Assembly: GCF_000621445.1 (NCBI RefSeq)
Contig: NZ_KK211277.1
Location: 352,821 to 408,157 of the forward strand
From: Alkalihalobacillus bogoriensis ATCC BAA-922
GTDB taxonomy: Bacteria > Bacillota > Bacilli > Bacillales > Bacillaceae_F
Reading direction: 5' to 3'
DNA: 55,337 nucleotides
Of the stretch, positions 8,659 to 52,793 are shown in pieces; within the stretch, counting starts at the first letter, position 1, and every line of letters starts with the position of its first letter. The position numbers and the translations under genes were made by a program. Under the pieces are notes generated by a model. It did not search any database. It was not told the DNA's origin and saw only the letters and a list, made by a program, of their open reading frames with translations.

Positions 8659-8843
8659 TAATGGACATCTTTTCCGCTATTTTTCGAATCAATCACGTTT
8701 GTCATGTGCTATCGGACATCTTTTCCGTTACATAAGTCATTTGACATATCTTTCCCTTTATTTCAGCTCATTAACGGAACAGATGTCCGTTAAAAATAGA
8801 AAACATTCCTTTTTTAATGATATAACGGAATAAATGTCCGTAA
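8659..8843. repeat. Four-core dyad intergenic repeat, unit 1
   Basis: Cores of the form CGGACATNNNTTCCG at 8662-8676 (first base T) and 8713-8727 in forward orientation, and at 8775-8789 and 8826-8840 in reverse orientation. Core centres are 51, 62 and 51 bp apart. Most cores are extended by TAN on the left and NTA on the right, giving small hairpin arms. This 343-bp gap between the RraA-like gene and dapH otherwise holds a terminator and the dapH promoter. Confidence 0.85.
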
Positions 8844-8861
8844 TGATAACAGACAATTTCG

Positions 8862-9347
8862 TTATAATAGAAAAGTGTCTGAAAGCAGAATGCCATCTTC
8901 ATCTGCATATACATAGTGGCCCGGTTCCCAACAGACACCAGCAAAAGACAGAGGGACTTGAGTTTCTCCTTCTCCTTTTTTTATACTTTTAAATGGGTTC
9001 GTACCAATCGCAAATAGACTAGTATCCATGTTATTAATCATCGCACTATCCCGGATACAACCATATATAATAACACCTGCTAGCTTCCTTTTAACCGCAA
9101 TATCAGCTAAATTATCTCCCATTAAAGCACAACGCGTCGACCCACCACCATCAACAACAAGGACACTATGTTCTGGAATTGCTTCAAGTGCTCGTTTCAC
9201 TAACACATTGTCTTCATATACTTTTACGGTATAAATTGGCCCGAAAAAAGCCGATTTCTTTCCATATTGTCGAAAAAGTGGATCAGCCACTTTCAGTTTA
9301 TCACGAAACTCATCACAAAGATCCGCTGTTTGAAATTGCCTACTCAT
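8862..9347 (-). CDS. RraA-like protein (RNase E inhibitor / HMG aldolase fold)
   Basis: Protein of 161 aa of the RraA family. Seen: TADLCDEF at the N-terminus, VLVVDGGGSTRCALMGDNLADIA and GVIIYGCIRD, which carry the phosphate and metal-binding region of the fold. Family members are either regulators of RNase E (E. coli RraA) or metal-dependent 4-hydroxy-4-methyl-2-oxoglutarate/oxaloacetate aldolase-decarboxylases; typical Bacillaceae lack RNase E, so an enzymatic role or an unknown one is more likely. Good GGAGG site 9 nt upstream of ATG 9347. It follows aceA after a terminator. Name as RraA-like only. Confidence 0.85.
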   Translation of the reverse strand: MSRQFQTADLCDEFRDKLKVADPLFRQYGKKSAFFGPIYTVKVYEDNVLVKRALEAIPEHSVLVVDGGGSTRCALMGDNLADIAVKRKLAGVIIYGCIRDSAMINNMDTSLFAIGTNPFKSIKKGEGETQVPLSFAGVCWEPGHYVYADEDGILLSDTFLL

Positions 9348-9416
9348 TTTTTATTCCTCCTTATACTAAAACTTGCCTTTTTTGGCATAGTTGTTATTCA
9401 CACAGTCGCAAAAAAG

Positions 9417-9444
9417 AAAGTAGGGAAAATTAATCCCCTACTTT
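9417..9444 (-). terminator. Intrinsic terminator after aceA
   Basis: Arms AAAGTAGGG and CCCTACTTT around a ten-nt loop, followed on the minus strand by CTTTTTT, just after the aceA stop codon. Confidence 0.85.
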
Positions 9445-9450
9445 TCCCGC

Positions 9451-10743
9451 TTATTTTTGAAACTGAGCTTCTTCTGTTGATCCTTTTAATGCAGTTGTTG
9501 ATGATGTACCACCAGAAACAACTTGTGCTACTTCATCAAAATAACCTGTTCCAACTTCACGTTGGTGGCGAGTCGCTGTATATCCATTTACTTCACTAGC
9601 AAATTCCGCTTGTTGTAGCTCTGAATATGCACCCATTCCTCTTTCTTTATAACCACGCGCAAGCTCAAACATGCTATGGTTTAACGCATGGAATCCTGCT
9701 AACGTTACAAACTGGAACTTATAACCCATTTTCCCTAGTTCAACTTGATATTTCTCAATCGTTTCTTTATCAAGATTTGCTTCCCAGTTAAATGATGGTG
9801 AGCAATTGTAGGCTAACATTTTTCCAGGGAATTTAGCGTGAATCGCATCTGCAAATTGTTTTGCTTCTTCTAAGCTTGGTTTTGACGTTTCGCACCAGAT
9901 TAAGTCAGCATATGGTGCATAAGCTAATCCACGAGCAATCGCTTGGTCAATTCCCGCATTTGTACGGTAGAATCCTTCTGCTGTTCGCTCACCTGTAATA
10001 AATGGAGCATCAACAGGGTCAATATCACTTGTAATTAAATCAGCTGCATCCGCATCTGTTCGAGCAATAAGAACAGTAGGAACACCACTAACATCAGCAG
10101 CTAGACGAGCTGATACTAAATTACGAATAGCCGTTTGTGTTGGGATTAATACTTTTCCACCTAAATGTCCACACTTTTTCTCAGAAGCTAATTGGTCTTC
10201 AAAGTGAACGCCTGAAGCACCGCCTTCAATCATTCCTTTCATTAATTCAAAAACATTTAACTGACCACCAAAACCAGCTTCAGCATCAGCAACAATTGGA
10301 GCAAAATAATCAACATCACCATTGCCTTCCATATGTTGAATTTGGTCAGCACGTTGCAATGAGTTATTAATTCTTTTGACAACTTGAGGAACACTATTTG
10401 CCGGATATAAACTTTGGTCTGGATACATTTGTCCTGCAATGTTAGCATCTGCTGCAACTTGCCATCCGCTTAAGTAAATCGCTTTTAGGCCTGCCTTTAC
10501 TTGTTGAACAGCCTGCCCCCCTGTTAGGGCACCTAACGCATTAATATAAGGCTCATTATTGATTAAGTTCCAAAGTTTTTCAGACCCTCTTCTAGCTAAC
10601 GTATGTTCAATTTGAACAGAACCACGAAGTCGTACAACGTCATCAGCACTATAAGGTCTTTCAATCCCTAACCATCTTTCATTCGTATCCCAATCAAATT
10701 GCAATTCTTTCACTTGTTCTTCTCTTGTCGTATTGTTTGTCAT
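9451..10743 (-). CDS. aceA: Isocitrate lyase
   Basis: Glyoxylate-shunt enzyme splitting isocitrate to glyoxylate and succinate, about 430 aa, cytoplasmic. The signature KKCGHLGG is at residues 189-196 with catalytic C191; metal and substrate segments LSGWQVAAD and DADAGFGG-like (ADAEAGFGG) are present. I place the start at ATG 10743 ([10 protein letters not shown]), which clears the aceB stop; an in-frame ATG at 10785 would overlap aceB by 13 nt. It follows aceB by 29 nt in the same transcript and ends at a terminator. Allows growth on acetate or fatty acids. Confidence 0.95.
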
Positions 10744-10772
10744 ATACTCCATCTCCCTTTTCATCTTTTTTA

Positions 10773-12362
10773 TTATTGAATACACTCATAACCAGGAACT
10801 GTTAAAAACTCTTCAAACTCATCATTTTCAATAAGTGAGATAAATAATTGACTTGCCTCATCAAATCTTCCGCTCTGGTAGACCCCAACCCCCAGATTTT
10901 CTTTGATTTTTTCCAATTCTTCTTTTTGTAATTGGTGTACAAGTTCTAATGTCACTTTTTCTCCTGTATTTAAAACACCTTTAGGATGACGAATCCATTG
11001 CCATACTTGCGCTCTTGATATTTCCGCTGTTGCTGCGTCTTCCATTAAGTTATTGATTGGAGCAGCCCCGTGCCCGCGCAACCAATATTCGATATATTGA
11101 ATTCCAACACTAATGTTTGTTCTAAGTCCGTCCTCTGTAATCGTGCCTTCAGGTATTTCAATTAAATCTTCGGCACTTACATTGACATCCTCACGTTTTT
11201 TATCAATTTGATTTGGTGTTGGCATATACTTGTCGAATACTTCTTTCGCTACAGGAACTAACGCGGGATGTGCAACCCATGTTCCATCATGTCCGTTTGT
11301 TGCTTCTCTTTCTTTATCTGCGCGAACTTTTGCAAACGCTTCTTCATTCGCTTTCTCATCATTTTTCACTGGGATTTGCGCAGCCATCCCCCCTATAGCT
11401 GGAGCGTTTCTTCTATGACATGTTTTAATCGCTAATGTCGAATACGCTTTCATAAAAGGGACAGTCATAGTCACTTGTGAACGGTCTGGTAAAATGACGT
11501 CCGGATGATTTCGAAATCTCTTTAAGTAACTAAAAATATAATCCCATCTTCCACAATTTAACCCTGCTGAATGTTCTTTTAATTCGTATAAAATTTCATC
11601 CATTTCAAACGCTGCCATAATCGTTTCGATTAATACAGTTGCTTTAATTGTTCCTTCAGGGATAGAAAGCTCTCGTTGAGCATATACAAAAATGTCATTC
11701 CACAATCTAGCTTCTAGGTGACTTTCAAGTTTCGGCAAGTAAAAGTAAGGTCCTGAACCATTTTCAATCAATGTTTTTGCATTATGATAAAAATAAAGTC
11801 CAAAATCTACTAAACTACCTGAAATCGGTATTCCATCAAACGTAATTTGCTTTTCTACTAAGTGCAATCCTCTAGGACGAACAACTAAAGTCGCAATTTC
11901 ATCTTTAAGTTTGTATTCTTTCTGAGTTGCTTCATTAACAAAACGAATGTTTTTTCGAATCGCATCACGCAAATTGATTTGTCCATTCATATTGTTGTCC
12001 CATGTTGGTGAGTTGGCATCTTCAAAATCCGCCATAAACACTTTTGCACCAGAGTTTAAAGCGTTAATAATCATTTTGCGGTCCACTGGTCCTGTAATTT
12101 CCACACGGCGATCTAGCAAATCCGATGGCAATGGAGCAATTTCCCACTCACTTTTTCTGATCGTCTCTGTTTCGGGCAAAAAGTTTGGCATGATCCCTTT
12201 ATCAATTTCTAGCTGTCGTACTTGCCTTCTCTTTAGGAGTTCAACTCGTCTTTTATCAAATCTCCGAACCAATTTTTCTACGAACAAAAGAGCTTCTGGC
12301 GTCAAAACCTCTTCATAACGATTCACATGGTTTATTTCCAAACTCGTTTTTATCTGATTCAC
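10773..12362 (-). CDS. aceB: Malate synthase A
   Basis: Condenses glyoxylate with acetyl-CoA to malate, second step of the shunt, about 530 aa. Seen: [12 protein letters not shown] and VRPRGLHL in the TIM barrel, [12 protein letters not shown], and the catalytic region [14 protein letters not shown] prefer the GTG at 12362 (VNQIKTSLE) because GGAGGGAGAGG lies just before it; an in-frame ATG at 12380 has no ribosome site and would contain that sequence. First gene of the aceB-aceA operon with a SigA promoter and a candidate operator in its leader. Confidence 0.94.
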
Positions 12363-12387
12363 ACTTTCCTCTCCCTCCATTTTAGTT

Positions 12388-12403
12388 ACTGTAGTAATAC
12401 AGT
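12388..12403. promoter_or_regulatory. Inverted repeat in the aceB leader, candidate operator
   Basis: Perfect ACTGTA-GTAA-TACAGT, about 10-25 nt downstream of the inferred aceB transcription start. It is either a repressor operator or a small 5-prime hairpin. No regulator for it is identifiable here. Confidence 0.5.
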
Positions 12404-12420
12404 TTTTATTTTATAAATTT

Positions 12421-12449
12421 ATAATATAACAGTATTTTAGTAATATCAA
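12421..12449 (-). promoter_or_regulatory. SigA promoter of aceB-aceA
   Basis: Minus strand TTGATA (12449-12444), 17-bp spacer, TATTAT (12426-12421). Confidence 0.65.
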
Positions 12450-12560
12450 CCACTTTTTTATACTTTTTTCTAATTTTTAAAAAAATATTGAAAAAATACC
12501 GTCTTTTCAACGTAATAAACCTTCAATTGTTTCATTACTTAATACCACTCACTACCCCTG

Positions 12561-12569
12561 TGTTATAAT
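12561..12569 (+). promoter_or_regulatory. Extended -10 promoter upstream of the TPP riboswitch
   Basis: TGTTATAAT gives a TG-N-TATAAT extended -10 on the plus strand. The -35 at the expected distance is not recognisable. About 110 nt of leader, including a 10-bp hairpin at 12633-12657, separates it from the aptamer. Confidence 0.5.
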
Positions 12570-12678
12570 ACATAAAAACAATATGTTAATGATTTTTAAG
12601 AAGAATAGTCCTTTTGGTTGAGTTTTCCTTTTATCTGTGATAGTTTTTATCATAGATAGTTACAGTCTAATATGGATT

Positions 12679-12766
12679 ACCACTAGGGGTGCTTATATAG
12701 CTGAGAAAGGTTAACAACCTAAACCCTATGAACCTGATCTAGGTAACACTAGCGGAGGGAAGTGGA
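12679..12766 (+). ncRNA. TPP riboswitch (THI-box)
   Basis: All conserved blocks are present in order: CCACTAGGGGTGC, AGCTGAGA, AACCCTATGAACCTGAT, then CTAGCGGAGGGAAGTGG. The closing P1 stem is CCACT (12680-12684) with AGTGG (12761-12765). It controls the downstream thiamin-pyrimidine salvage operon; binding of thiamin pyrophosphate should favour the terminator that follows at 12803. Confidence 0.96.
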
Positions 12767-12802
12767 TGGACGGTCGTTGTACTGACATGCGATATTGTGC
12801 CC

Positions 12803-12845
12803 AAGCTACTTCTTTTCAATGAAGTAGCTTTTTTTATTTTTCTAA
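12803..12845 (+). terminator. Riboswitch expression-platform terminator
   Basis: Perfect 10-bp stem, AAGCTACTTC with GAAGTAGCTT, loop of eight nt, then a long T-rich run. It lies between the TPP aptamer and ylmB, so control is by transcription termination. Confidence 0.92.
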
Positions 12846-12861
12846 TAAAAGGAGGTTAGAA

Positions 12862-14154
12862 ATGACAAACTCAAAAGAGCTTATGAATCTATTACATACG
12901 GTGGAAACAAATAAAGAAGAATTACTTTCCCTTATCAAAACACTCATTGCCTTTGAAACACCAAGTCCACCTGCTAGAAATACAAAAGAAGCCCAACAAT
13001 TTATCGCCGATTATTTACAATCACTCGGCTTCACCATTGATATGTGGGATGTTTATCGCAACGATCCGAATGTTGTTGGCGTCCTAAAAGGAAAACAACC
13101 TGCTAGCGCAAATAGCTTGCTAATTAATGGACATATTGATGTTGCGGAAGTCCATGAAGATGAACCATGGGAAGAACCACCGTTTTCACCTATTGTGAAA
13201 GATGGTATTTTGTATGGTCGCGGTGCAGCTGATATGAAAGGCGGCTTAGGTTGTGCCTTGTTTGCCTTATCCTTGCTTCATCGTCATAACATTTCCTTAC
13301 CTGGGGATCTCATTGTAGAGTCTGTTATAGGAGAAGAAGTCGGGGAAGCTGGAACATTAGAATGTTGTAAAAAAGGATATGCAGCTGACTTTGCGGTTGT
13401 CGTTGATACAAGCGATTGCCAAATTCAAGGCCAAGGTGGTGTCATTACAGGTTGGATAACAATTCAAAGTCCAAACACCTATCATGATGCAACAAGGAGA
13501 AATATGATTCATGCAGGTGGTGGGATGTTTGCCGCTAGTGCGATCGAAAAAATGATGAAAGTCATTTCTAGCTTAAATGAACTTGAACAACATTGGGCCA
13601 TTACAAAATCATATCCAGGGTTTCCACCCGGCATGACGACGATTAACCCGGCCGTCATTGAAGGTGGCAGACATGCTGCATTTATCGCTGATAAATGCGC
13701 GTTATGGATTACAGTTCACTTTTATCCAAACGAAAACCATGATGATATCGCAAAAGAAGTGGAAAACCATATATTACAAATGGCAAAAGCTGATCCATGG
13801 TTACGTGAACACCCACCTATTTTTCAATGGGGTGGCACATCGATGATTGAAGAACGAGGCGAAATTTTTCCTTCTTTAGAAATCGACCCTACACACCCAG
13901 GTGTCCAACAGCTTGCACAAGCCCACCAGCATGTGTTCCAGGAAAACGTACAAATTAGCATGTCCCCTACTGTAACTGACGGTGGATGGTTAGGTGAAGC
14001 TGGAATTCCTACGGTTATTTATGGTCCTGGAAAACTCCAACATGCTCATGCTGTAAATGAACAAGTGTCAGTTGAAGAGTTAGTTCATTTCACTAAAGTT
14101 CTATTAACTTTTATTTACGAATGGTGTCATTCAAAAAAGGAGTGTATTAAATGA
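12862..14154 (+). CDS. ylmB: Formylaminopyrimidine deformylase-type peptidase M20 (YlmB)
   Basis: Zinc-dependent deacylase of the ArgE/DapE/M20 family, 430 aa. Seen: LLINGHIDV, the GRGAADMKGG metal motif, and the catalytic pair in GEEVGE. In B. halodurans the homologous enzyme removes the formyl group from N-formyl-4-amino-5-aminomethyl-2-methylpyrimidine in the base-degraded thiamin salvage route. The riboswitch upstream, TenA downstream and ThiXYZ in the same operon all fit that role. AAGGAGG precedes the ATG by 8 nt, and its stop overlaps tenA start (ATGA). Confidence 0.9.
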   Translation: MTNSKELMNLLHTVETNKEELLSLIKTLIAFETPSPPARNTKEAQQFIADYLQSLGFTIDMWDVYRNDPNVVGVLKGKQPASANSLLINGHIDVAEVHEDEPWEEPPFSPIVKDGILYGRGAADMKGGLGCALFALSLLHRHNISLPGDLIVESVIGEEVGEAGTLECCKKGYAADFAVVVDTSDCQIQGQGGVITGWITIQSPNTYHDATRRNMIHAGGGMFAASAIEKMMKVISSLNELEQHWAITKSYPGFPPGMTTINPAVIEGGRHAAFIADKCALWITVHFYPNENHDDIAKEVENHILQMAKADPWLREHPPIFQWGGTSMIEERGEIFPSLEIDPTHPGVQQLAQAHQHVFQENVQISMSPTVTDGGWLGEAGIPTVIYGPGKLQHAHAVNEQVSVEELVHFTKVLLTFIYEWCHSKKECIK

Positions 14155-17377: not shown

Positions 17378-17383
17378 AAAGGC

Positions 17384-17426
17384 AAAGGTGAGACCAGATG
17401 TGTTTTTACACTGTGGTCTCACCTTT
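17384..17426. terminator. Terminator between thiY and the converging lipoprotein gene
   Basis: Perfect 13-bp stem, AAAGGTGAGACCA with TGGTCTCACCTTT. The T-run is short on the plus strand; the A-rich left flank lets it act on the minus strand as well. Confidence 0.75.
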
Positions 17427-17460
17427 AATTTAGACGCAGTTGTCTAAAGGTCTATCTAGC

Positions 17461-18309: not shown

Positions 18310-18339
18310 GTAGCAATGATTACCTTTCTATTTATCAAC

Positions 18340-21447: not shown

Positions 21448-22569
21448 TTATGCTTCATTCGATTTGTCTTCATTTTGTAATAATGTGTGACCTGTGTCTG
21501 GTTTTTCAATATATAAGCTGCGAGATGGAAACGCGACAGACACCCCTTCTTCTTCCAATATTCTCATAATAGTAAAGTTAATGTCTTCTTTTACCCGAAG
21601 CCATTCTCCCCACATAATTGTATTTGTGAAAAAATAAATAAAAATATCTAAACTTGAACTATTAAATTCACTAAATCGAACTAATATTAAATCTTGGTGA
21701 ACTTCCTCGTGTTCCCGCAATGCTTTTTCAATTTTTCTCGCAACAGTTTCAAGTTTTTCTTTCGGCGTTGAATACGTTACACCAAGGGAAAAAGTGATTC
21801 GCCGCTTGCCCATTTGAGCCCAGTTTGTAATTGGCTCATTCGCTAACGTAGAATTCGGAACAGTCACAACCGAATCCGCAAACGTTCGGATTTTCGTACT
21901 TCGAAACGTAATATCTTCTACAACCCCTGTAACAGTTGGGGTTTCAATCCAATCCCCTTTTTGGAAAGGCTTTTCCGTAATAATAATGACACCACCAAAA
22001 AAATTACTCACTGTATCTTGGGCTGCTAAGGCAAACGCAAGACCACCTAGACCTAACCCAGCAACTAACCCTGTAATTTGAATATCCCACACACCTAGTA
22101 CGATTGTTAATGTTAGTGCAATAACTAGGAAACGAAGTCCTTTTGATAAAAAAGGAATAAGCATACTTTTTTCTTCATCTTCATCAATATGATTAAACAT
22201 CCTCATAAATAATGATGAATTTTCAGCAGTGAAATTATAAAGGCCCCATCCGACTAGTAAAATGATGGACGATCCGTACACTTTTTCTAAAGTTAGCATA
22301 ACATCGGGCCGGACCGGCAAATAAATTAGTGCAACATACGTTCCTACTATGATAAAAAACGTCCGTAATGGTTTTTCAAATGCTAATAACACATTTGTAA
22401 ATATGTCAGTCGGTGTTTTCTTTGAAAACCGAACAATTAGTTTGAAAATATAACGTGTAAACACTTTTCTAAAAATATGAAACAACAGAAAAATCGCAAG
22501 CGCTATTCCTATATCAACCCATTTGATACGATAAAAATAGTCAGTTATATTCACCCAATCCCAATCCAT
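21448..22569 (-). CDS. MscS-family mechanosensitive channel, YhdY-like
   Basis: Membrane channel of about 373 aa, longer than YkuT, with roughly five predicted transmembrane helices (near residues 15-35, 60-80, 90-110, 135-160, 165-185) before the cytoplasmic domain. The pore helix is GLVAGLGLGGLAFALAAQDTVSNFFGG, and the beta domain starts at FQKGDWIETPTVTGVVEDI. Length and topology resemble B. subtilis YhdY. I use ATG 22569 (MDWDWVNI), preceded by GAAGGTGTGG; the ATG at 22602 has no ribosome site. Probable osmotic-downshock release valve. Confidence 0.87.
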   Translation of the reverse strand: MDWDWVNITDYFYRIKWVDIGIALAIFLLFHIFRKVFTRYIFKLIVRFSKKTPTDIFTNVLLAFEKPLRTFFIIVGTYVALIYLPVRPDVMLTLEKVYGSSIILLVGWGLYNFTAENSSLFMRMFNHIDEDEEKSMLIPFLSKGLRFLVIALTLTIVLGVWDIQITGLVAGLGLGGLAFALAAQDTVSNFFGGVIIITEKPFQKGDWIETPTVTGVVEDITFRSTKIRTFADSVVTVPNSTLANEPITNWAQMGKRRITFSLGVTYSTPKEKLETVARKIEKALREHEEVHQDLILVRFSEFNSSSLDIFIYFFTNTIMWGEWLRVKEDINFTIMRILEEEGVSVAFPSRSLYIEKPDTGHTLLQNEDKSNEA

Positions 22570-22651
22570 AACATCCACACCTTCATTAAACTTCCCGACC
22601 ATTTTATCATATTTTGCATTTTATGCTCTATAAATTTCTGCTCGAATCATG

Positions 22652-22836
22652 CTTCGGACATGTATTCCACTATTACATACAAAACCACCATTTTTCATTT
22701 TCTACCGGACATACGTTCCTTTATCCTTCAAAATAACATTGCTTTACAGTCGTTTTTACTAAAGTAACGGAACATATGTCCGATAGCATCTACATTCCCG
22801 TCTTTTTTCTTTACTTAGCGGAACCCCTGTCCGATT
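22652..22836. repeat. Four-core dyad intergenic repeat, unit 2
   Basis: Forward cores at 22655-22669 and 22706-22720 (last base of each is not G), reverse cores at 22768-22782 and 22819-22833. Centre spacing is 51, 62 and 51 bp, the same as in units 1, 3 and 4. Lies between the MscS and YtxH-like genes. This 365-bp gap also holds a GC-rich inverted repeat and a terminator. Confidence 0.85.
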
Positions 22837-22967: not shown

Positions 22968-23345
22968 TTACTCTTTTGTGTTGTTCGTTGCTTCTTCATT
23001 TGACCCATCTTCAACAACTTCTTGAATAAGATGACCAATATCTCCACCGTCATGGGTAGAATCTTGTTCTTGTTGATTTTGGTTTTCGGACGTAGATTGA
23101 GAGTTGGACTCTGTTTGTTCTCCTTTATTGTCATCAAATAAATCTGCGGTCCATTCGCTTCCCATCTCAAGTAGCATATGAGAAATTTTTCCGCCTTCTC
23201 TTTCTGTTTGGTCAAATTGCTTCATAATATCTTGACGAAGTTCTTGTCCTTTTTTAGGGGCTAATAAAAGCGCTCCCGTTGCACCGATTACACCACCAAT
23301 TAAAGTTCCTACAAGCATCGTGTTACCCGAACGTCGTTTTCTCAT
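22968..23345 (-). CDS. YtxH-like general stress/membrane-anchored protein
   Basis: Protein of 125 aa with an N-terminal glycine-rich transmembrane helix (TMLVGTLIGGVIGATGALLLAPKKG), the YtxH domain signature, and a long acidic, Gln/Ser-rich tail. YtxH relatives are often stress-induced in Bacillus; function is unknown. The start at 23345 (MRKRRSG) has GGTGA 8 nt upstream; the in-frame ATG at 23360 abuts its GGAAGGGG and is less likely. Confidence 0.75.
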   Translation of the reverse strand: MRKRRSGNTMLVGTLIGGVIGATGALLLAPKKGQELRQDIMKQFDQTEREGGKISHMLLEMGSEWTADLFDDNKGEQTESNSQSTSENQNQQEQDSTHDGGDIGHLIQEVVEDGSNEEATNNTKE

Positions 23346-23454
23346 AAACAAAATCACCATCCCCTTCCATCAATGGTTATAAAAGTCCTCATCATTAGCA
23401 TTCACTTTCATACCCATTTTTTATTCGAATGAAACAAGGTTTTTGGTGATTTTT

Positions 23455-42029: not shown

Positions 42030-42060
42030 GAACCAATCCATTTAGGTTTGGTTCTTTTTT
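42028..42060 (+). terminator. Terminator after the 45-aa ORF
   Basis: AAGAACCAA and TTGGTTCTT stem, ten-nt loop, then a T run. Confidence 0.8.
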
Positions 42061-42074
42061 GGAATCTCTTTTGT

Positions 42075-42104
42075 TTGACAAACGTCACTTTCATCTTTTA
42101 TACT
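42075..42104 (+). promoter_or_regulatory. SigA promoter of the azoreductase gene
   Basis: TTGACA (42075-42080) and TATACT (42099-42104) with an 18-bp spacer. Confidence 0.7.
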
Positions 42105-42120
42105 GACAATTGTAGTTTTA

Positions 42121-42134
42121 GTTGCTATAGCAAC
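42121..42134. promoter_or_regulatory. Perfect palindrome in the azoreductase leader
   Basis: GTTGCTATAGCAAC, 14 bp, about 10 nt after the expected transcription start. Candidate operator for a redox or quinone-sensing repressor; no match to the YodB or MhqR sites I know. Confidence 0.5.
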
Positions 42135-42167
42135 AAAAGGAATATACTTATATGGAGGTCATACAAC

Positions 42168-42794
42168 ATGGCAAAAGTTTTATTTATTAAAGCAAATTCA
42201 AGACCAGTGGAGCAGTCAGTCAGTGTTAAACTCTACTATTCTTTCATAGAAAGCTATAAACAATCACACCCTAACGACGACATTACTGAACTTGATTTGT
42301 TTGCAGAAAACCTACCGTACTACGATACGGACAAAATCAATGGAATGTTTAAATTAGCAAAAGGAATGGAGTTAACGCCTGCTGAAAAAGAAGCTACTGA
42401 CATCGTTACAAAATATTTAAATCAATTTTTAGAAGCAGAAAAAATCGTCATTGCCTTCCCATTATGGAACTTTACTGTTCCCGCTGTGTTACACACGTAT
42501 TTAGATTATTTAGCGCAAGCAGGCAAAACATTCCGCTACACAGCTGAAGGACCAGAAGGATTATTAACAGATAAAAAAGTGGTCTTGTTAAATGCAAGAG
42601 GAGGCGTCTATTCAGAAGGTCCTGCTCAATCAGCAGAAATGGCAGTCAACTTTGTCGAAACTATGCTGAATTTCTGGGGGGTTCAAGAGATTCAATCTGT
42701 CATCATTGAAGGACATAATCAATTCCCTGATAAAGCAGAAAGCATTATAGAAGAAGGATTACAAAAAGCAGCAACATTAGCAACGAAGTTTTAA
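42168..42794 (+). CDS. azoR: FMN-dependent NADH azoreductase
   Basis: Flavodoxin-like quinone/azo reductase of 208 aa. Seen: VLFIKANSRP near the N-terminus (FMN phosphate loop region), AFPLWNFTVPAVLHTYLDYL and the loop LLNARGGVYS. Protects against quinones and electrophiles in B. subtilis relatives. ATG 42168 has GGAGG 8 nt upstream; a longer in-frame ORF from 42048 overlaps the promoter. Confidence 0.93.
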   Translation: MAKVLFIKANSRPVEQSVSVKLYYSFIESYKQSHPNDDITELDLFAENLPYYDTDKINGMFKLAKGMELTPAEKEATDIVTKYLNQFLEAEKIVIAFPLWNFTVPAVLHTYLDYLAQAGKTFRYTAEGPEGLLTDKKVVLLNARGGVYSEGPAQSAEMAVNFVETMLNFWGVQEIQSVIIEGHNQFPDKAESIIEEGLQKAATLATKF

Positions 42795-42830: not shown

Positions 42831-42846
42831 TTCTATTTGCAGAACG

Positions 42847-43031
42847 TAGCGGACATGCGTTCCGCTATTTCACGCAAAACCTTTGTTTCTCAGAACCTAT
42901 CGGACATGTGTTCCGCTATCTCTTTGTATTTTCGGAGTTTCACTTTTTTACTTCTTCATTAACGGAATAGATGTCCGGTAGCATCAAGATTTCATTGAAA
43001 ATATGTATAATAGCGGAAAACATGTCCGTTA
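42847..43031. repeat. Four-core dyad intergenic repeat, unit 3
   Basis: Forward cores at 42850-42864 and 42901-42915, reverse cores at 42963-42977 and 43014-43028; spacing 51, 62, 51. It fills most of the 313-bp gap between the converging azoR and sugar-binding protein genes. Confidence 0.88.
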
Positions 43032-43097: not shown

Positions 43098-43107
43098 ACT
43101 TTCTTCT

Positions 43108-44163
43108 TTAGTAAACCTCTTTCCACTCATCAATATTACTTGCATCAAAGCGGAATGGGTCGCCTAACATAATTTGTGTCCCTTCTCCATCTTCAACGAC
43201 TTCTTTTTGCCCAAGCCTTCCTAATTCTAGACTCTCTCCAACAACCCCTTTTATTTCCCCTTCCACTAATGCATAAGCAGCCATACCTGCCCCATATCCA
43301 ACATCAATTGGATTCCATAAAAACATCGCTGGTGACACACCGTTTTCTATATAGGAAGCCATTTCACTAGGAAGTCCAAGACCAGTTAGTGCGATTTCAC
43401 CTTGTAGCCCTTTATCCGTCAGAACTTTACCTGCTGCTGCAATCCCTACGGTAGTAGGGGAGATTATTGCTTTTAAATCAGGATATTGTAATAATAATGC
43501 TTCGGTTTCAGATGTACTTTTATCACGTAAATCATCACCATATGCTATTTTCACTAATTCCATATTTTCATACTTTGGATCTTCTAATTCTTTTTTCATC
43601 CATTCGATCCAAATGTTTTGATTTGTCGCTTGAGATGTTGCGCTTAATACAGCAATTTCTCCTTCATACTCTATCATTTCAGCTACAGCTTCAATTTGGG
43701 AACGACCAATTCTTTCCGGGTCAGCCTGATTCACATGAACGATTCGACTGTTGGCGTTTACAGAAGAATCAACAGAAAGAACTTTAATGCCTGCATCCAT
43801 TGCTTTCTGTAATACTGGTTGCAAAGCATCCTCATCATTTCCAGCAATCGCAATCGCATCGACTTGCTGTGTAATTAATTGTTCAATAATTTGAATTTGC
43901 CCTTCCGCCGTTGGTTGGTCCGGGGAACGGAGAATGACATTTCCACCAACTTCATTTATTGCTTCTTCAAACCCATCCATCATTTTTTCACCATATGGAT
44001 TTCCAGTATTTTTAAAGACCATCGCGTATGTTCTATCTCCATCATTAGAGCTTGAACCACCCTCAGAAGGTTGTTCACCCTGATTTGTTGCTTCACTTCC
44101 ACAAGCGGTAAGCATCACAGCTGCTAATCCAATAGTAGCCCATTTCACAAAAAACTTTTTCAT
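43108..44163 (-). CDS. Sugar ABC transporter substrate-binding lipoprotein (RhaS/LsrB-like)
   Basis: Periplasmic-binding-protein-like I fold, 351 aa, membrane-anchored by lipobox LTACG at residues about 18-22, followed by a Gly/Ser/Asn linker. Binding-fold motifs: TYAMVFKNTGNPYGEKMMDGFEEA-type start, PDQPTAEGQI and VLSVDSSV. Closest in style to rhamnose (RhaS) and AI-2 (LsrB) binding proteins, and to the L-arabinose importer AraE of Geobacillus. Substrate cannot be fixed from sequence; the GH127 and three-component system nearby favour L-arabinose. Last gene of the importer operon. Confidence 0.87.
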   Translation of the reverse strand: MKKFFVKWATIGLAAVMLTACGSEATNQGEQPSEGGSSSNDGDRTYAMVFKNTGNPYGEKMMDGFEEAINEVGGNVILRSPDQPTAEGQIQIIEQLITQQVDAIAIAGNDEDALQPVLQKAMDAGIKVLSVDSSVNANSRIVHVNQADPERIGRSQIEAVAEMIEYEGEIAVLSATSQATNQNIWIEWMKKELEDPKYENMELVKIAYGDDLRDKSTSETEALLLQYPDLKAIISPTTVGIAAAGKVLTDKGLQGEIALTGLGLPSEMASYIENGVSPAMFLWNPIDVGYGAGMAAYALVEGEIKGVVGESLELGRLGQKEVVEDGEGTQIMLGDPFRFDASNIDEWKEVY

Positions 44164-44233
44164 CCTTTTCTCCCCTTTTTTAATGTTTTATACATAATCA
44201 GCCAAACTGCCGAAACAGCCGGACCGTTAGTAA

Positions 44234-46309: not shown

Positions 46310-46329
46310 CACCTCTTCCTTCCATTGTC

Positions 46330-47841
46330 TTAGCTGATTTCTTTTTTTGAACTATCCGTCATTGCTGCTTCTAGGATTTCTTCTTGAGTCACAGCATCTT
46401 TATCAAATATTTTTGCAATTCTCCCCGCACGCATAACAGCAATACGATCGCTCATGCCAATAACTTCAGGCATTTCTGATGAAACGATAATAATGCCATA
46501 TCCTTTGGCAGCTAAGTTCTGGATAATTTCATATATGGCAGACTTTGCCCCAACATCGACACCTTTTGTAGGTTCATCCATGATAATAATATCTAATTTC
46601 GCAGTAAGTAATTTTGCAACAGCAACCTTCTGTTGGTTTCCTCCAGATAATGAGCTAACTAAATCGAATATGCTATTTGCTTTAACCTGTACCTTTTCAG
46701 CTAATTCTTTTGCAAGCGCATTTTCACTTTTTTCACGTAACCACCCTTTTTTGGAAAGTTGAGAAAGCGCCGGCAACGTTATATTTTTTCCAATTCCCCA
46801 TTGCAGCACCAAACCTTGTAATTGACGGTCCTCAGGTAAATAGCCGATTCCAAGTTTCATTGCCTGTTTTGGGCTTTTTATCATTACTTTTTTTCCGTTT
46901 AATCGAATTTGCCCTTTGTCATAAGGCATAATGCCAAATAGCGATTGGCAAACTTCTGTCCTTCCCGCCCCAACAAGACCTGTTATAGCTAAAATTTCGC
47001 CTTTCCGTACATGAAATGAAATATCAGCAAAATATCCCGTTTTACTTAGCCCTTGCACTTCGAATAGGACATCACCAATAACCGTATTTTTAGTTGGAAA
47101 TACTTGTGTAATTTCTCTTCCAACCATCGCTACAACTAATTCCTCATTTGTAATCTCATGAATACCCCAAGAACCTATATATTTAGAATCTCGGAGTACT
47201 GTCACTTGTGAGGCTAGTCGATACATATCTTCAAATCGATGCGAAATAAAAATAATAGAAGCTCCATTTTCTCGTAAACTTTCAGTAATTTTGTATAGTT
47301 CCTCACTTTCCCTTGCTGTTAAGGCCGCTGTTGGTTCATCCATAATAATAATTTTCGCTTTAGTAGAAATCGCTTTTGCAATTTCTACAATTTGCTGCTG
47401 AGCAACACTAAGCGATCCCATTTCTGCTCTTGGATCAATGGAAGACCCAAGTGACTTTAATATGGCTCTAGCTTCTTCATGCATTTGTTTCCATAGAAGC
47501 CGTTTTGTGATTTTTTCTATTTTTTCATGTCCCATAAATATATTTTCAGTGACGGTCAAATCAGGATAATTCGTAACGTGCTGATAAATGGCGGCAATTC
47601 CTTTGGCTTGAGCTTCATTTGGGTTAGAGAACTCTACTTTTTCCCCTCTGACAAACATTTCCCCTTCATTCGGAGCGTGGACGCCCGTAATGACTTTAAT
47701 AAAAGTCGACTTTCCGGCCCCGTTTTCTCCCATTAACGCATGAATTTCTCCTGGTTTTAGTTTAAAGTGGACATTGTCTAGAGCCGTTACTCCAGGGAAT
47801 CTTTTCGTAATCCCTTTCATTTCTAGTACGTATTCAGTCAT
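46330..47841 (-). CDS. Sugar ABC transporter ATPase (two nucleotide-binding domains)
   Basis: RbsA/AraG/RhaT-type ATPase of about 503 aa with two ABC domains. First domain: Walker A GENGAGKST, Walker B IIIMDEPTAAL, signature LSVAQQQ. Second domain: degenerate P-loop GLVGAGRTE, signature LSGGNQQK, IIMDEPTKGVDVG, as is typical of the carbohydrate-uptake type 2 (CUT2) family. ATG 47841 (MTEYVLEMKG) follows GGGAGTGAG. First gene of a four-gene importer operon, with a perfect cre site just upstream. Confidence 0.93.
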   Translation of the reverse strand: MTEYVLEMKGITKRFPGVTALDNVHFKLKPGEIHALMGENGAGKSTFIKVITGVHAPNEGEMFVRGEKVEFSNPNEAQAKGIAAIYQHVTNYPDLTVTENIFMGHEKIEKITKRLLWKQMHEEARAILKSLGSSIDPRAEMGSLSVAQQQIVEIAKAISTKAKIIIMDEPTAALTARESEELYKITESLRENGASIIFISHRFEDMYRLASQVTVLRDSKYIGSWGIHEITNEELVVAMVGREITQVFPTKNTVIGDVLFEVQGLSKTGYFADISFHVRKGEILAITGLVGAGRTEVCQSLFGIMPYDKGQIRLNGKKVMIKSPKQAMKLGIGYLPEDRQLQGLVLQWGIGKNITLPALSQLSKKGWLREKSENALAKELAEKVQVKANSIFDLVSSLSGGNQQKVAVAKLLTAKLDIIIMDEPTKGVDVGAKSAIYEIIQNLAAKGYGIIIVSSEMPEVIGMSDRIAVMRAGRIAKIFDKDAVTQEEILEAAMTDSSKKEIS

Positions 47842-47882
47842 TTTCTCACTCCCTACCATTTCTATTTCTAATAAACACTTAC

Positions 47883-47898
47883 TTGATAACGCTTACAA
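47883..47898. promoter_or_regulatory. cre site upstream of the sugar ABC operon
   Basis: On the minus strand TTGTAAGCGTTATCAA matches both common CcpA consensus forms at every position. It lies 42-57 nt upstream of the ATPase start codon. No clear -35/-10 pair is seen, which suits an activator-dependent promoter. Confidence 0.8.
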
Positions 47899-47966
47899 AT
47901 AATGATAATCCATCCACTCTTTTCTCAAAAGGTGACAACTTTCGGTTATAGTGAGAGAATTTTCTG

Positions 47967-48015
47967 AAAATAAGAAAAGAAAGATGCTTTAACCACATCT
48001 TTCTTTTCTTATTTT
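47967..48015 (-). terminator. Terminator of the sugar-sensing operon
   Basis: Perfect 20-bp stem (left arm 47967-47986, right arm 47996-48015), nine-nt loop. The right arm includes the stop codon and last codons of the response regulator. Confidence 0.85.
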
Positions 48016-49631
48016 TGTATACGTGTTTGTATGTTTACCTTATATTTTGATGGAATTTCCCCATAATATTTTTTAAACAACTTACTAAAGTATTTTGAAT
48101 CAGAATATCCGACTTCGTTAGAGATTTCATATACTTTCAAATTTGTTGTGAGTAGTAACTCTCTCGCTTTCGCCATACGAACTTTTGTTACATAGTCTAA
48201 CACCGTTTCTCCAGTTTGCTGTTTAAAGTATTCGCAAAAATAGGTTGGATTCATATACACTTCATTTGCTACCTTTTCAATCGTAATATTATTGGCAATA
48301 TTTTCTGAAACCCATCTTTTTACGATGCGAATATTATCAAACAACCTCGTTTCGTCACTCTTCTCCAGCTCGGCAAACCTATCATAAATCCAATTCGTGA
48401 TTTCAGTTGTTAACTCCGAAAAATTACTCATTGTGTTTATAAAAGGAAAGCTTTCAAACTCTAACGTTCGTGTATGGCTCATTACAAAGCTACTAATTTG
48501 TATGACGCAAGAACGGATAATATCGGAAATGTTTGTGGGTGATTGGATTTGTTGAATTATTTCATTAAATTGTAGGATATGAACTTGTAAACTTGCTTTA
48601 TCTATTCTTTCAAAGTCTTCGAGTATTTTTTGAATGATAGGCTGTACTTGCGCTAAATACTGATTGTCTGTCACAGAATATTGTCGTGTCTGCCCGTGGA
48701 AAAAAGTTTGATTTCCCCCATAAATGACTCGAAAAGGCAATAGCCGGGTCAGGTCTTTTTTCACGCTAGGTAACGAAGTAATATCTGTGAACGGTTTGCT
48801 AATGATTATCGTGTTAGAAAGGGGCGTATAGTGAGTAATTGCTTGTTGCAGTTTTCTTGAAAAGGTGTCTACATCCTGTTTTAATCCGTTTAGACTTTCC
48901 CCTTCGGAAGAATGAAATAACATCATCGTACAAGCATTAGCTAATTTCCATTTCCACCAGTTTCCTTTAATAGAGGACGCTTGCTCTTGTAAAATATTTT
49001 CATGAGCAAATGTCCACAATTTCGAGTCTTCCTCAGACAATACCTTTGAATGTTCTACTTTTTGATCGACACTGATAAGGACAGAAATAAATATGCCACT
49101 TGGAAAGTCTATAAGTTGGTCAAATACAGAAACATCTTTCTCTTCATAAGCTGTCAATTCAAGTAATTTTTCTTGTTGTTTCGTTTTTGTTACTAGCGAG
49201 GCTTGTTTCACCATTATCTCGAACTGTCTTTTCTCCATTCTTTCATTTTGAATCTTTTGTTTTACTGCCTCAAGTTGTATGTTAAACTCATTTCGGTCGA
49301 TTGGCTTCAGTAAATAATCTAGAGCACCTTCCCTGATAGCTGTTTGCAAATAGGAGAAATCGTCGTATCCACTTATGACAAGTGGATAAAAATGAGTTCG
49401 CTTTTTCATTTCTTTTATTAACGTTAGGCCATCCATTAATGCCATTCGAATATCTGTAATTAACACGTCAAATTCAAATGGATGTTCATCATAGGAAGAA
49501 ACAAGTTCTTGACCATCACTATACGCTGCTTCCACGCTCCAATCGGGCCCACATGCGATTACCATTTTTTCAATGCCACGTCTAATGCGTTTTTCATCAT
49601 CAACAATGACTGCTCTAATGCAGTGACTCAT
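48009..49631 (-). CDS. AraC-type response regulator of a three-component sugar system (AraT/YesN-like)
   Basis: Response regulator of 540 aa: receiver domain with D11, D12 and phosphoacceptor D60 (VLITDIRM), a long central region (about 130-430) with no family I recognise, and a C-terminal AraC-type double helix-turn-helix (TIEKVANEVYMNPTYFCEYFKQQTG, VYEISNEVGYSDSKYFSKLFKKYYG). Start overlaps the kinase gene by 17 nt. It most likely activates the adjacent importer operon. Confidence 0.92.
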   Translation of the reverse strand: MSHCIRAVIVDDEKRIRRGIEKMVIACGPDWSVEAAYSDGQELVSSYDEHPFEFDVLITDIRMALMDGLTLIKEMKKRTHFYPLVISGYDDFSYLQTAIREGALDYLLKPIDRNEFNIQLEAVKQKIQNERMEKRQFEIMVKQASLVTKTKQQEKLLELTAYEEKDVSVFDQLIDFPSGIFISVLISVDQKVEHSKVLSEEDSKLWTFAHENILQEQASSIKGNWWKWKLANACTMMLFHSSEGESLNGLKQDVDTFSRKLQQAITHYTPLSNTIIISKPFTDITSLPSVKKDLTRLLPFRVIYGGNQTFFHGQTRQYSVTDNQYLAQVQPIIQKILEDFERIDKASLQVHILQFNEIIQQIQSPTNISDIIRSCVIQISSFVMSHTRTLEFESFPFINTMSNFSELTTEITNWIYDRFAELEKSDETRLFDNIRIVKRWVSENIANNITIEKVANEVYMNPTYFCEYFKQQTGETVLDYVTKVRMAKARELLLTTNLKVYEISNEVGYSDSKYFSKLFKKYYGEIPSKYKVNIQTRIQK

Positions 49632-51435
49632 TATAATGAACCTCCTCTCTTTTTATTAAAGGAATTTGAATTGTCACTTCTGTACCGCTAGTATCGCTTG
49701 TAATCGTCAACCCATAGCCTTCCCCGAATTGAAGGGCAATTCTAGCATGTACATTCACTAACCCAAAGCGTGAATCTCGTTTTTTCATCGGATCAGCCAA
49801 AAGTAATTGTTCGATATTATACAACACTTCTTCATTCATACCAGAGCCATTATCTTTAATCGTAAACAAAACACCTTCCTGTTTTCTACATTTTTCTGTA
49901 TATGTTTCAATCCCTATCTCAACAGTGGTAACCTTTCCTGGGATAATCGCATATTTGATGACGTTTTCAACAATGGGTTGAAGAATAAATTTTGGAGTGA
50001 ACACATCTTTCGCATTTAATTTTTCAGTTATATAAAAGTCCAAACTTTCCTCAAAGCGAATTTTTTGAATCGTTAAGTAGTCCTTAACATGAGCTACTTC
50101 ATCCGCAATCGGAATAAGATCATCTTTATTACTAATCGAAAATCTCAGCATACGCCCTAATATCGTTACCATTTGAACCACCGTTTCTTTTTCATCATCT
50201 TCAACCGCCATTGCTATCGTTTCTAACGTATTGTACATAAAGTGAGGGTTAATTTGAGATTGTAGTGCATATAATTCTGCATCTTTTTGTTTTAATTGAA
50301 TATGATATTTCTCTCGAATTAACTCTCTTATTTCTTTTATCATTTTATTAGTACTGTTCGCAATCATCCCCACTTCATCTTGTCGTTCAACAGATAGGTC
50401 CACATTAAAATTCCCTTTCTCTACCAGTTTCATAGATCGTGCTAATCTTTGTAATGGGCTCGATACATTCCATGATAATAAAATCGCTAAACCCGTGCTG
50501 ATCAGAACGAGGATGATAAAAATCATCACAGTAATATTGCGTACCAAATCCGTCCTTTCCGTTAAATGTCTAACATATACACTATGAACTAACACCCAAT
50601 TTTCTTGTTCCAAATGGTCAATACTAATTAACCTCGTTTTTTCTTCTTTTTTCGTTCTAAAGCTTCCATTGATTTTAGGATAATCATATGAATGTACATC
50701 AATGGTTCCAATTAAATCTGGATTTGTATGATAAATAATTCGACCTGTATGATCCATCATCCATATTGATGCTTTTTCATCGGCATTTAATTTATGCACT
50801 ACATCTTTTAAGAAAGATACTTCAATCGCAATAGCAATAGTCCCTAAGTTTTTTCGATTTTCTAAATCTGTCAGTTGCTTCATCAATAATATATAAGGAG
50901 GGTTTCCTTCAAACTGAAGTGCTGTTTGATGTGGTAATAAAAAAACAGTTTCATTACCCTCAATCTCAAAATTTTCACCATAATAAAGGGAAGGAAATTG
51001 AAAATCAATTTGGTCATACGGTACTTTCACACTTTGAAACTGTCGATTATTTGAAAAAATAAAGACACCTAAAATATCAGGATTCGCGCCATTTATATAG
51101 TGTCTCGTTAAATAATTATTAATGAAAAATTGGTCTTGTAACAATGAAGAGCGGTTTTGATACACGTCTTTTCGCAATATGCTCATAACTTGGCTCGAGT
51201 TATAAATCGTATCTGGTAATTCCTTGATTTCTCTTAACTGATTTTTTATGTTTTCATTCGCTTGTTCTAGTAATTTTGGAATATATTCACCGACTTGCTC
51301 TTCAATTGACGTTGTATAATGACTATATGCCACATAACCTAAAAGCGCCATTGGGAGAACGGTAAGGATAAAATACATGACAACTAACTTTGTTCGAAGA
51401 CGATAATTCTTAAAACTTATGATTTTAGAAATCAT
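49615..51435 (-). CDS. Sensor histidine kinase of a three-component sugar system (AraS/YesM-like)
   Basis: Membrane kinase of 606 aa. Transmembrane helices near 17-38 and 301-322 flank a large extracellular sensor domain; then HAMP (about 323-375), the His_kinase motif with H398 (QSQINPHFMYNTLET) and an HATPase domain (PIVENVIKYAI, DNGSGM). Start overlaps the end of the binding-protein gene by 11 nt and its end overlaps the regulator. The sensor probably reads the sugar-bound lipoprotein rather than the sugar itself (inference from AraPST). Confidence 0.92.
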   Translation of the reverse strand: MISKIISFKNYRLRTKLVVMYFILTVLPMALLGYVAYSHYTTSIEEQVGEYIPKLLEQANENIKNQLREIKELPDTIYNSSQVMSILRKDVYQNRSSLLQDQFFINNYLTRHYINGANPDILGVFIFSNNRQFQSVKVPYDQIDFQFPSLYYGENFEIEGNETVFLLPHQTALQFEGNPPYILLMKQLTDLENRKNLGTIAIAIEVSFLKDVVHKLNADEKASIWMMDHTGRIIYHTNPDLIGTIDVHSYDYPKINGSFRTKKEEKTRLISIDHLEQENWVLVHSVYVRHLTERTDLVRNITVMIFIILVLISTGLAILLSWNVSSPLQRLARSMKLVEKGNFNVDLSVERQDEVGMIANSTNKMIKEIRELIREKYHIQLKQKDAELYALQSQINPHFMYNTLETIAMAVEDDEKETVVQMVTILGRMLRFSISNKDDLIPIADEVAHVKDYLTIQKIRFEESLDFYITEKLNAKDVFTPKFILQPIVENVIKYAIIPGKVTTVEIGIETYTEKCRKQEGVLFTIKDNGSGMNEEVLYNIEQLLLADPMKKRDSRFGLVNVHARIALQFGEGYGLTITSDTSGTEVTIQIPLIKREEVHYNESLH

Positions 51436-52462
51436 ATTGGTCTACATTGTCCTTTGTATAATCTATCGGTTCTCCCATAATGACTGTATCTCCTATCATA
51501 CGAATTTTTCCAACTTTCGGAATATCTTGTCTATCATACGGTTCTTTTCCTTCTACTACATTTTTTGATATCGCTACGGTTAAATATCCGAGCTTTTTCG
51601 GGCTCCATAACGTTACCGCTTGAGCAGTTCCATCCTTCAAGTACTCATTCATTTGACTAGGAGAGGCTAATCCAACAACCGCTACTTCTCCACTTTTTCC
51701 TAGCTCTTTCACCGCCTTTGCTATAGCCGGAGGTCCTTCAGAAGCACTCCCAATTATCCCATCTAAATCAGGGTGTTCTTTAAGCAACTCCTTTGCCAAT
51801 ATATAAGCTTGATGTGGGTCTTCATCATTGGCAACGATATCTACTAACGTCATTTGTGAATAATATTCTTCATGTTGAATATTAATCCAATGAACCCATT
51901 CGTTTAAGTTAGCTGCTGTAAATGAACCGGTCATAATAGCAAATTTTCCTTGCTCATTTGTATTCCACGCTAGTAAATCCATTAAATGCCGACCTAATGT
52001 TTCCGGGTCAACCATGTTAATAAACAAGTCACGTGAGCCAGGAAGCGTATCGGAGTCCCATGTAATCACTTTAATCTCAAGTTGCCTTGCTTTTTGCAAC
52101 ACAGGTGCTAGTTTTTCAGGATCATTTGCCGATACAGCTAATAAATCTACGTTTTGCTTGATTAAGTCTTCAATAATCTCAATTTGTAAAGATGAATCAG
52201 CCAGTGGTGGACCTTTATATATGACATTCACATTTAAATCTTCTGCCGCTTCTCTTGCTCCTTTTTCTACTGCATTAAAATATGGGATGTTAACAAGTTT
52301 AGGAACAATAGCCACTGTTATTTGGTCCTCATCCGTGTTCTCTTGTTCAAATGAAGGTGCTTGCTCATTTTCATAAACAATCTCATAGGGAGAATCACTG
52401 TCACTCATTATGTTGCAACCGCTTACAATTAATAGAAAGATAATAGAACAAAATACTTTCAT
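51425..52462 (-). CDS. Sugar-binding lipoprotein sensor of a three-component system (AraP-like)
   Basis: Periplasmic-binding-protein-like lipoprotein of about 345 aa. Lipobox IVSGC at residues 13-17 after a short signal peptide, then a ligand fold (VAIVPKLVNIPYFNAVEKGAREAA, VLAVSANDPEKL, VITWDSD). It resembles the RhaS/LsrB-like transporter protein at 43.1 kb, but lies first in the kinase-regulator operon, so it should sense rather than transport. ATG 52462 has GGAG 5 nt upstream and puts the signal peptide at the N-terminus; an ATG at 52486 is also in frame. Matches AraP of Geobacillus AraPST in role. Confidence 0.85.
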   Translation of the reverse strand: MKVFCSIIFLLIVSGCNIMSDSDSPYEIVYENEQAPSFEQENTDEDQITVAIVPKLVNIPYFNAVEKGAREAAEDLNVNVIYKGPPLADSSLQIEIIEDLIKQNVDLLAVSANDPEKLAPVLQKARQLEIKVITWDSDTLPGSRDLFINMVDPETLGRHLMDLLAWNTNEQGKFAIMTGSFTAANLNEWVHWINIQHEEYYSQMTLVDIVANDEDPHQAYILAKELLKEHPDLDGIIGSASEGPPAIAKAVKELGKSGEVAVVGLASPSQMNEYLKDGTAQAVTLWSPKKLGYLTVAISKNVVEGKEPYDRQDIPKVGKIRMIGDTVIMGEPIDYTKDNVDQYDF

Positions 52463-52561
52463 GAGTGCTCCCACCTCTTTTTTCATTTTCTCGTATTATA
52501 CTCTTTTTTTATAAAAAGGTGTAGCTAGTAAAGTAATTCTTCTTACCTCATACTAACAAAA

Positions 52562-52592
52562 AGCCAGCTATGATTTTTATTCATAGCTGGCT
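52562..52592 (-). terminator. Terminator hairpin duplicated from the azoR region
   Basis: Same 12-bp stem as at 42800-42830. Here the minus strand continues into five T, so it can end transcripts of the GH127 gene after they cross repeat unit 4. Confidence 0.7.
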
Positions 52593-52608
52593 TTCTATTT
52601 GCAGAACG

Positions 52609-52793
52609 TAGCGGACATGCGTTCCGCTATTTCACCCAAAACCTTTGTTTCTCAGAACCTATCGGACATGTGTTCCGCTATCTCTTTGTATTTTCGGAGT
52701 TTCACTTCTTTTTTTCTTCATTAACGGAATAGATGTCCGGTAGCATCAAGATTTCCTTGAATATGGGCACATTAACGGAACACGTGTCCGTTA
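52609..52793. repeat. Four-core dyad intergenic repeat, unit 4
   Basis: Forward cores at 52612-52626 and 52663-52677, reverse cores at 52725-52739 and 52776-52790; spacing 51, 62, 51. Lies between the GH127 gene and the sensor operon in a 342-bp gap that also holds the duplicated terminator. Confidence 0.88.

Follow-up and report, generated by a model that had tools for sequence, protein, structure and literature searches.

Within a window of 55,337 nucleotides (the whole stretch of DNA analysed), four intergenic segments each carry two forward and then two reversed copies of one short core, which raises the question of what kind of element this layout represents. Four 185-bp units with core centres 51, 62 and 51 bp apart had been proposed for this DNA, and both their presence and the exact spacing were confirmed in all four (Table 1). 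The reading that we favour, as probably though by no means certainly correct, is that the unit serves, as double-stranded DNA, for the assembly of four putative protein dimers into a wrapped complex and is maintained by selection in the host.

Table 1. Units and cores in the window, and second-family copies in other stretches of the own genome
Feature	Position	Strand	Context or match to core
Unit 1	8659..8843	.	between DapH-type gene (7796-8518, -) and RraA-like gene (8862-9347, -)
Unit 1 core 1	8662..8676	+	one mismatch
Unit 1 core 2	8713..8727	+	exact match
Unit 1 core 3	8775..8789	-	exact match
Unit 1 core 4	8826..8840	-	exact match
Unit 2	22652..22836	.	between MscS-type channel gene (21448-22602, -) and YtxH-like gene (22968-23360, -)
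Unit 2 core 1	22655..22669	+	one mismatch
Unit 2 core 2	22706..22720	+	one mismatch
Unit 2 core 3	22768..22782	-	exact match
Unit 2 core 4	22819..22833	-	one mismatch
Unit 3	42847..43031	.	convergent gap, flavodoxin-fold gene (42048-42794, +) / sugar-binding protein gene (43108-44163, -)
Unit 3 core 1	42850..42864	+	exact match
Unit 3 core 2	42901..42915	+	exact match
Unit 3 core 3	42963..42977	-	exact match
Unit 3 core 4	43014..43028	-	exact match
Unit 4	52609..52793	.	between genes 51425-52486 (-) and 52829-55108 (-); recent copy of unit 3
Unit 4 core 1	52612..52626	+	exact match
Unit 4 core 2	52663..52677	+	exact match
Unit 4 core 3	52725..52739	-	exact match
Unit 4 core 4	52776..52790	-	one mismatch
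Second-family copies	L035:5130, L044:3039, L048:10767, L048:14246, L049:3441		own-genome stretches
Second-family copies (rest)	L136:2631, L139:10926, L143:10782, L158:2831		own-genome stretches

The core was defined as CGGACATNNNTTCCG, which was matched exactly by 11 of the 16 window cores and with one mismatch by the other five. Throughout the genome (5.0 Mb, 51 contigs), the core occurred 863 times with at most one mismatch, compared with 7 occurrences of the same pattern read backwards. In a 455-kb sample consisting of the window and 20 stretches picked for holding cores, 216 of the 251 core pairs no more than 400 bp apart showed the expected distances (50-52 bp on the same strand; 60-63, 112-114 or 163-165 bp facing), and the strict core yielded 36 full units. 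When the outer spacing was fixed at 51 bp and a looser core score was used, an inner spacing of 62 bp gave 43 units and one of 60 bp gave a single unit, and the 23 other even inner spacings from 40 to 88 gave none. Rather than being scattered in random order and at random distances, the cores are locked at 51-62-51 genome-wide; nor are they only four recent copies of one sequence. A recent copying event links units 3 and 4, which are 93.3% identical over 240 bp, of which 58 bp are left flank.

The middle of the core varies by lineage. CATNNNT is specific to one family, and the part common to the families seen is CGG-N9-CCG followed by YTA, with a short inverted repeat inside each core. A looser unit score built on CGG-N9-CCG plus YTA (maximum 36) found, at a score of 26, 71 units in 635 kb of the own genome (G000), 89 in 1.08 Mb of the sister species G001 and 3, with a core of another type, in 280 kb of the third congener G002, and none in one shuffled control for each of these genomes. 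At a score of 28, 12 of the 66 own-genome units departed from CGGA/TCCG, of which 8 belonged to a second family and 4 appeared misregistered or decayed. Nine copies of the second family were found, including one beside a RAYT-like gene, and since they are 91% alike over 179 bp this family spread recently. Each of its units has four different cores, yet the 51-62-51 spacing is kept; the copies are embedded in partly shared flanks, with 40-44% identity in the 50 bp beyond the unit.

The earlier note suggested that the spacing is kept and the filler between the cores is not. The first part was supported, but the filler shares a phased A/T pattern and carries information. In other species, the G+C content of 46 units followed a wave with a best period of 10.2 bp (R2 0.73 vs. 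a shuffled 99th percentile of 0.12), and weighting by species (13 other species, 47 units) gave 10.24 bp with an R2 of 0.75 and a bootstrap range of 10.20-10.30. The corresponding wave in 39 own-genus units had a period of 10.1 bp (R2 0.40 vs. 0.13). Fits by segment gave 10.04 bp (9.82-10.24) for the outer filler and 10.46 bp (10.20-10.68) for the middle; single-species fits ranged from R2 0.07 to 0.62, and the flanks of other-species units showed a weak wave too (11.1 bp, R2 0.12, 99th percentile 0.10). In the own genome and elsewhere alike, the filler is rich in A from +26 to +29 and in T from +37 to +40, and as read from the profile the A/T crests extend across the centres of the cores, from which the arms are offset by half a turn. 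Because the G+C content oscillates every 10.24 bp, 51 and 62 bp correspond to 5.0 and 6.1 turns, that is, 5 and 6 turns, which agrees with the suggestion that all cores are turned to the same side of the helix.

Read in this way, a unit of ~180 bp would present four dyad sites, CGG-N9-CCG and mostly CGGA-N7-TCCG, on one helix face and 5, 6 and 5 turns apart. Each dyad would probably be bound by one protein dimer in two successive major grooves, and the A/T-rich steps every 10.2 bp of the filler would allow the DNA to bend towards the protein. A period below 10.5 bp suggests a left-handed path and one above 10.5 bp a right-handed path, the nucleosome value being near 10.2. With its shorter period, the unit may follow a left-handed, nucleosome-like path.

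Constraint on the unit was evaluated in 28 orthologous pairs. Differing sites were few in the arms (19/894, 2.1%), CA.T (12/448, 2.7%) and YTA (11/336, 3.3%), compared with 38/336 (11.3%) in NNN and 492/3695 (13.3%) in the flanks; within the filler, 7.4% of A/T-phase positions and 14.4% of G+C-phase positions differed. Compared with the flanks, evolution is about 2-6 times slower in the arms, CA.T, YTA and the A/T-phase filler, but not in NNN and at the G+C-phase positions. Because A/T bases may mutate less, the comparison was also limited to A/T bases, where 5.8% differed at the A/T phase vs. 12.1% in flanks (p 6e-9) and 13.3% at the G+C phase. Indel events were also rarer, with 17 in 5006 unit bases vs. 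50 in 4480 flank bases (p 6e-6), although the arm and indel rates are biased downward since units were found by their arms and spacing and broken ones were excluded; CA.T, YTA and the phase positions played no part in finding the orthologous units. As judged from these sequence comparisons, the unit is under selection in place as double-stranded DNA.

A long hairpin, formed by core 1 with core 4 and core 2 with core 3 in RNA or single-stranded DNA, had been put forward in the earlier note and was not borne out. The NNN positions agreed at 93 of 204 positions for cores 1 and 4 (88.4 when shuffled, p 0.26) and at 109 of 204 for cores 2 and 3 (105.7 when shuffled, p 0.28), and the outer fillers were slightly less complementary than shuffled ones (z -2.3). 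The small arms proposed for each core are present as a short inverted repeat, but the stem has no extension beyond them: in the main family the bases at -1 and +15 of the core vary independently of each other, with no covariation at the stem edge, and the core stem therefore ends at its arms. A hairpin between cores, a stem extension and an RNA were accordingly rejected for the main family, on the lack of both covariation and core pairing. Rfam covariance models gave no match in the window at the gathering threshold except a TPP riboswitch. This riboswitch lies at 12675-12777 of the window and scored 80.4 bits.

The placement of the units beside genes was analysed using simple ORF calls, by which 4 of 96 units overlapped an ORF by more than 60 bp. 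Tandem, convergent and divergent gaps accounted for 43, 21 and 4, respectively, of the 68 non-orthologous units, vs. 236, 72 and 75 of the gaps of 150 bp or more in that DNA, a control that includes the unit-bearing gaps and counts syntenic G000/G001 DNA twice; divergent gaps were depleted (p 0.005) and convergent gaps enriched (p 0.033). Units of other species were distributed over 45 tandem, 25 convergent and 8 divergent gaps. Moreover, 72 of 122 neighbouring stop codons lay within 60 bp of a unit. A structured RNA or a two-way transcription terminator would fit this position, and the inverted repeat in each core would suit it, but the results on pairing, stem edge and Rfam models speak against it and the 10.2-bp composition wave has no evident meaning for an RNA; we regard it as scarcely probable. 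On the favoured reading of a wrapped complex, units would be kept by selection at positions that are mostly behind genes and rarely in divergent gaps, and their most likely role would be that of an insulating or chromosome-organising mark at gene ends.

The gene families beside the units showed no telling recurrence, and no candidate for the binding protein was found among them. As read from the sequences, those seen in three or more species were AraC-type, ABC ATPase, MFS and sensor-type families. No founding gene was found beside lone units in sparse genomes, where only ordinary-looking genes and an IS256-like transposase occurred, the latter, again by sequence reading, near two lone units in G002 and G127. 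Per-column tests against gene direction revealed slight differences only. In G001, a strict half-unit pattern was met by the leading-strand-downstream half in 61 of the 100 matches listed of 107 (p 0.035), and units may be weakly polar.

Location behind genes is also a property of strong DNA gyrase sites. Such a site, as proposed for BIME-2, would have gyrase wrap the unit behind genes and remove supercoils. Gyrase is general, yet most relatives show no units. In E. coli, gyrase sites carry a phased G/C wave of 10.75 bp, with two 47-bp arms around a 36-bp centre over 130 bp, which is read as wrapping, and are enriched downstream of transcribed operons (available part of PMC6379681). The gyrase motif and BIME-2 share with the units a phased G/C wave, an intergenic position (BIME-2) and a location downstream of transcription units, but the published motif (same source) is degenerate, and the units consist of four exact dyads at fixed spacing over ~180 bp with a period of 10.24 bp. 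The 10.75-bp wave was not found over the unit, where the period was 10.20-10.30 bp, although the middle segment alone allows a period of up to 10.68. A period of 10.75 bp would imply a right-handed path for gyrase, and the period of the unit suggests a left-handed one. Gyrase wrapping is a distinctly unlikely account of the units.

Conservation could alternatively reflect use by a transposase and not by the host, with the unit a non-autonomous MITE-like element carrying two transposase sites per end. Like MITEs of the bcr1 type, the units are discrete dispersed copies with sharp ends, a few to ~20 bp beyond the outer cores; among the matches listed, the similarity of related copies (80-90%) reaches up to about 3-12 bp past the outer cores and ends there. 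Since the similarity between copies covers the unit and a few to ~20 bp of adjoining sequence, the unit appears to be copied as a block, and spread as blocks would equally form part of the wrapped-complex reading. The recent spread of the second family, the patchy distribution and one unit in a prophage-like contig all favour mobility, as does a below-average distance between the most similar copies in the G000 C4 stretch (36 vs. 58 kb) and in its G001 counterpart (29 vs. 54 kb), but the other stretch pair showed little or no local clustering (60 vs. 69 kb and 64 vs. 59 kb).

The loci themselves were less readily explained by transposition. G000 and G001 stretches align at roughly 87-98%, and most G000 units lie at the same loci in G001: among 79 unit entries from both genomes, 55 had an intact partner at the same place, 8 were missing or broken and 16 were unplaceable. 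The seven of these eight sites looked at showed internal deletions, rearrangement or a tandem copy, with no clean empty site; three had a deletion of ~50 bp running from one core to its neighbour, the outcome expected of direct repeats. No target-site duplication was seen at these sites or in the second-family flanks, which contain no consistent direct word. Two G002 loci were too diverged to read, G002 being ~70-86% identical to G000 where alignable. No larger cargo-bearing version stood out, in a comparison confounded by orientation. Furthermore, copying alone does not give the in-place conservation of the main family between two species while NNN and the G+C-phase positions drift. A MITE-like element thus appears unlikely, though deserving of some weight. 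Among described repeats, bcr1-bcr3 of the B. cereus group resemble the units in being intergenic, MITE-like Bacillus elements of about 150-170 bp; compared by description only, they are presented without four phased dyads (PMC3446304, with Bcr1 size from PMC2267715, as far as the available text of each goes). Bhal-1 of Bacillus halodurans (74 bp, 36 copies), compared by length only, corresponds to about half a unit plus edges (available part of PMC2267715).

The RAYT-like gene beside a second-family unit raises the further alternative of a REPIN-like single-stranded element copied by a RAYT transposase. This gene, the only one of its kind in the own genome (NF047646, 74.3 bits, below the cut-off of 80), lies 767 bp from the unit, beyond a fabZ-like gene, at the same place in G000 and G001; by chance, ~4% of 3-kb surroundings would hold a second-family unit at 8 per 635 kb. 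RAYT relatives occurred in 28 of 35 pair carriers vs. 204 of 362 other genomes (p 0.007; lists matched by eye). Among 30 RAYT loci of about 3.5 kb, 7 of them from carriers, a unit was found only in G000 and G001 (one orthologous place); the other 28 had none, though only 5 of these were from carriers. G270, moreover, has 21 pairs and no RAYT match. REPINs are likewise high-copy and extragenic, with inverted conserved ends, a fixed-length, less conserved spacer and tandem arrays, but they need hairpin pairing, whereas the units have four cores instead of two, lack hairpin pairing or compensatory changes and are near a RAYT gene in the case of one second-family unit only (REPIN features from the available part of PMC3116915). 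Inverted repeats that pair with compensatory changes were not found in the main family, nor was covariation at the stem edge, and helical spacing would be useless in single strands. The RAYT link is weak, and copying of this kind is very unlikely to explain the units.

The three-core pattern had 240 matches in G001, 127 in the own genome and none in G002. Across the order, a CGGA-N7-TCCG pair at 50-52 bp was found in 35 of 397 genomes (at least 10 pairs in 13), and a four-core pattern with the spacing fixed at 51-62-51 and no more than 3 mismatches in 23 of 397, including three that the pair search had missed (G004, G008 and G079); this exact pattern misses genomes with 50-62-50 spacing, such as G075. 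In four pair-matching genomes (G089, G219, G242 and G215) the locus seen was another repeat or a chance-like match. A class-wide sample gave the three-core pattern in 3 of 398 genomes, namely the own genome and two outside the order. By our own count, four CGGA-type cores occur patchily on named contigs of at least 24 species of Bacillus- and Paenibacillus-type genera, in a scan that imposed arms and spacing and thus tests neither. Some soil and saline bacteria are among the carriers. The carriers among the matches listed belong to Paenibacillus, Cohnella, Ammoniphilus, Texcoconibacillus, Halalkalibacter, Salibacterium, Rossellomorea, Calidifontibacillus, Gracilibacillus, Aquibacillus, Pseudoneobacillus, Gordonibacillus and Bacillus. 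An independent test of geometry was provided by 28 loci of other genomes found by one pair alone: a further core lay 60-64 bp away in 19, and the average for other 5-bp windows was 1.5, even with the expected 110-114 window among them. In addition, the T and A of YTA, which was not imposed in the search, were present in all but about 1% of 110 fillers. The saturated filler combined with fixed geometry across genera suggests an old family that may often have been gained and lost, and the patchy occurrence (35/397 and 23/397 genomes) implies either a dispensable host factor or such frequent gain and loss. No unit was found on plasmids by BLAST with one unit as query. None of the viral contigs matched the own-genus pattern, and the general pattern gave one match, in the 16.6-kb prophage-like contig. 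That unit lies at L324:1360-1540, near a repressor-like gene.

Sampling of the G001 chromosome (37 samples of 20 kb from a grid of 41 places; of the four places left out, two fell within unit-rich stretches) gave 29 strict units, or 40 by the looser score, which extrapolates to about 190 or 260 units per genome, respectively. Four samples from 2.18 to 2.56 Mb contained no units. Strict exclusion from the terminus was rejected, as units are present at 2.66-3.15 Mb, beyond the skew change.

We tentatively consider a more specific form of the wrapped complex, possible but doubtful, in which hundreds of sequence-positioned, nucleosome-like particles, each with four dimers wrapping ~180 bp left-handed, would act as boundaries behind genes, their places being specified by the four dyads together with the 10.2-bp bending rhythm. 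If so, the position and rotation of a DNA-wrapping particle would be encoded at hundreds of intergenic addresses, and the units would explain a considerable part of the intergenic DNA of these genera. As a broad class, high-copy intergenic repeats are known; the four-dyad, helically phased layout selected in place was not matched by the families tested here, and a full-text literature search with the motif letters, judged by title, returned no such repeat.

Several other repeats were encountered during the searches. Tandem repeats of 52 bp that include CGGA-N7-TCCG in a single orientation occur in three stretches, from G242, G089 and G219 (L111-L113), and are probably a separate kind of repeat. 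In G002, the locus corresponding to one G000 unit contains an array of the palindrome TTCATGAA with ~21-bp spacing (C1 ~1514440-1514560, L278), the only such array in 260 kb. In G094 and G013 (L114, L115), the units themselves form tandem arrays with a period of 192-193 bp and 29 bp between the last core of one unit and the first core of the following one, a distance at which helical phase would be kept.
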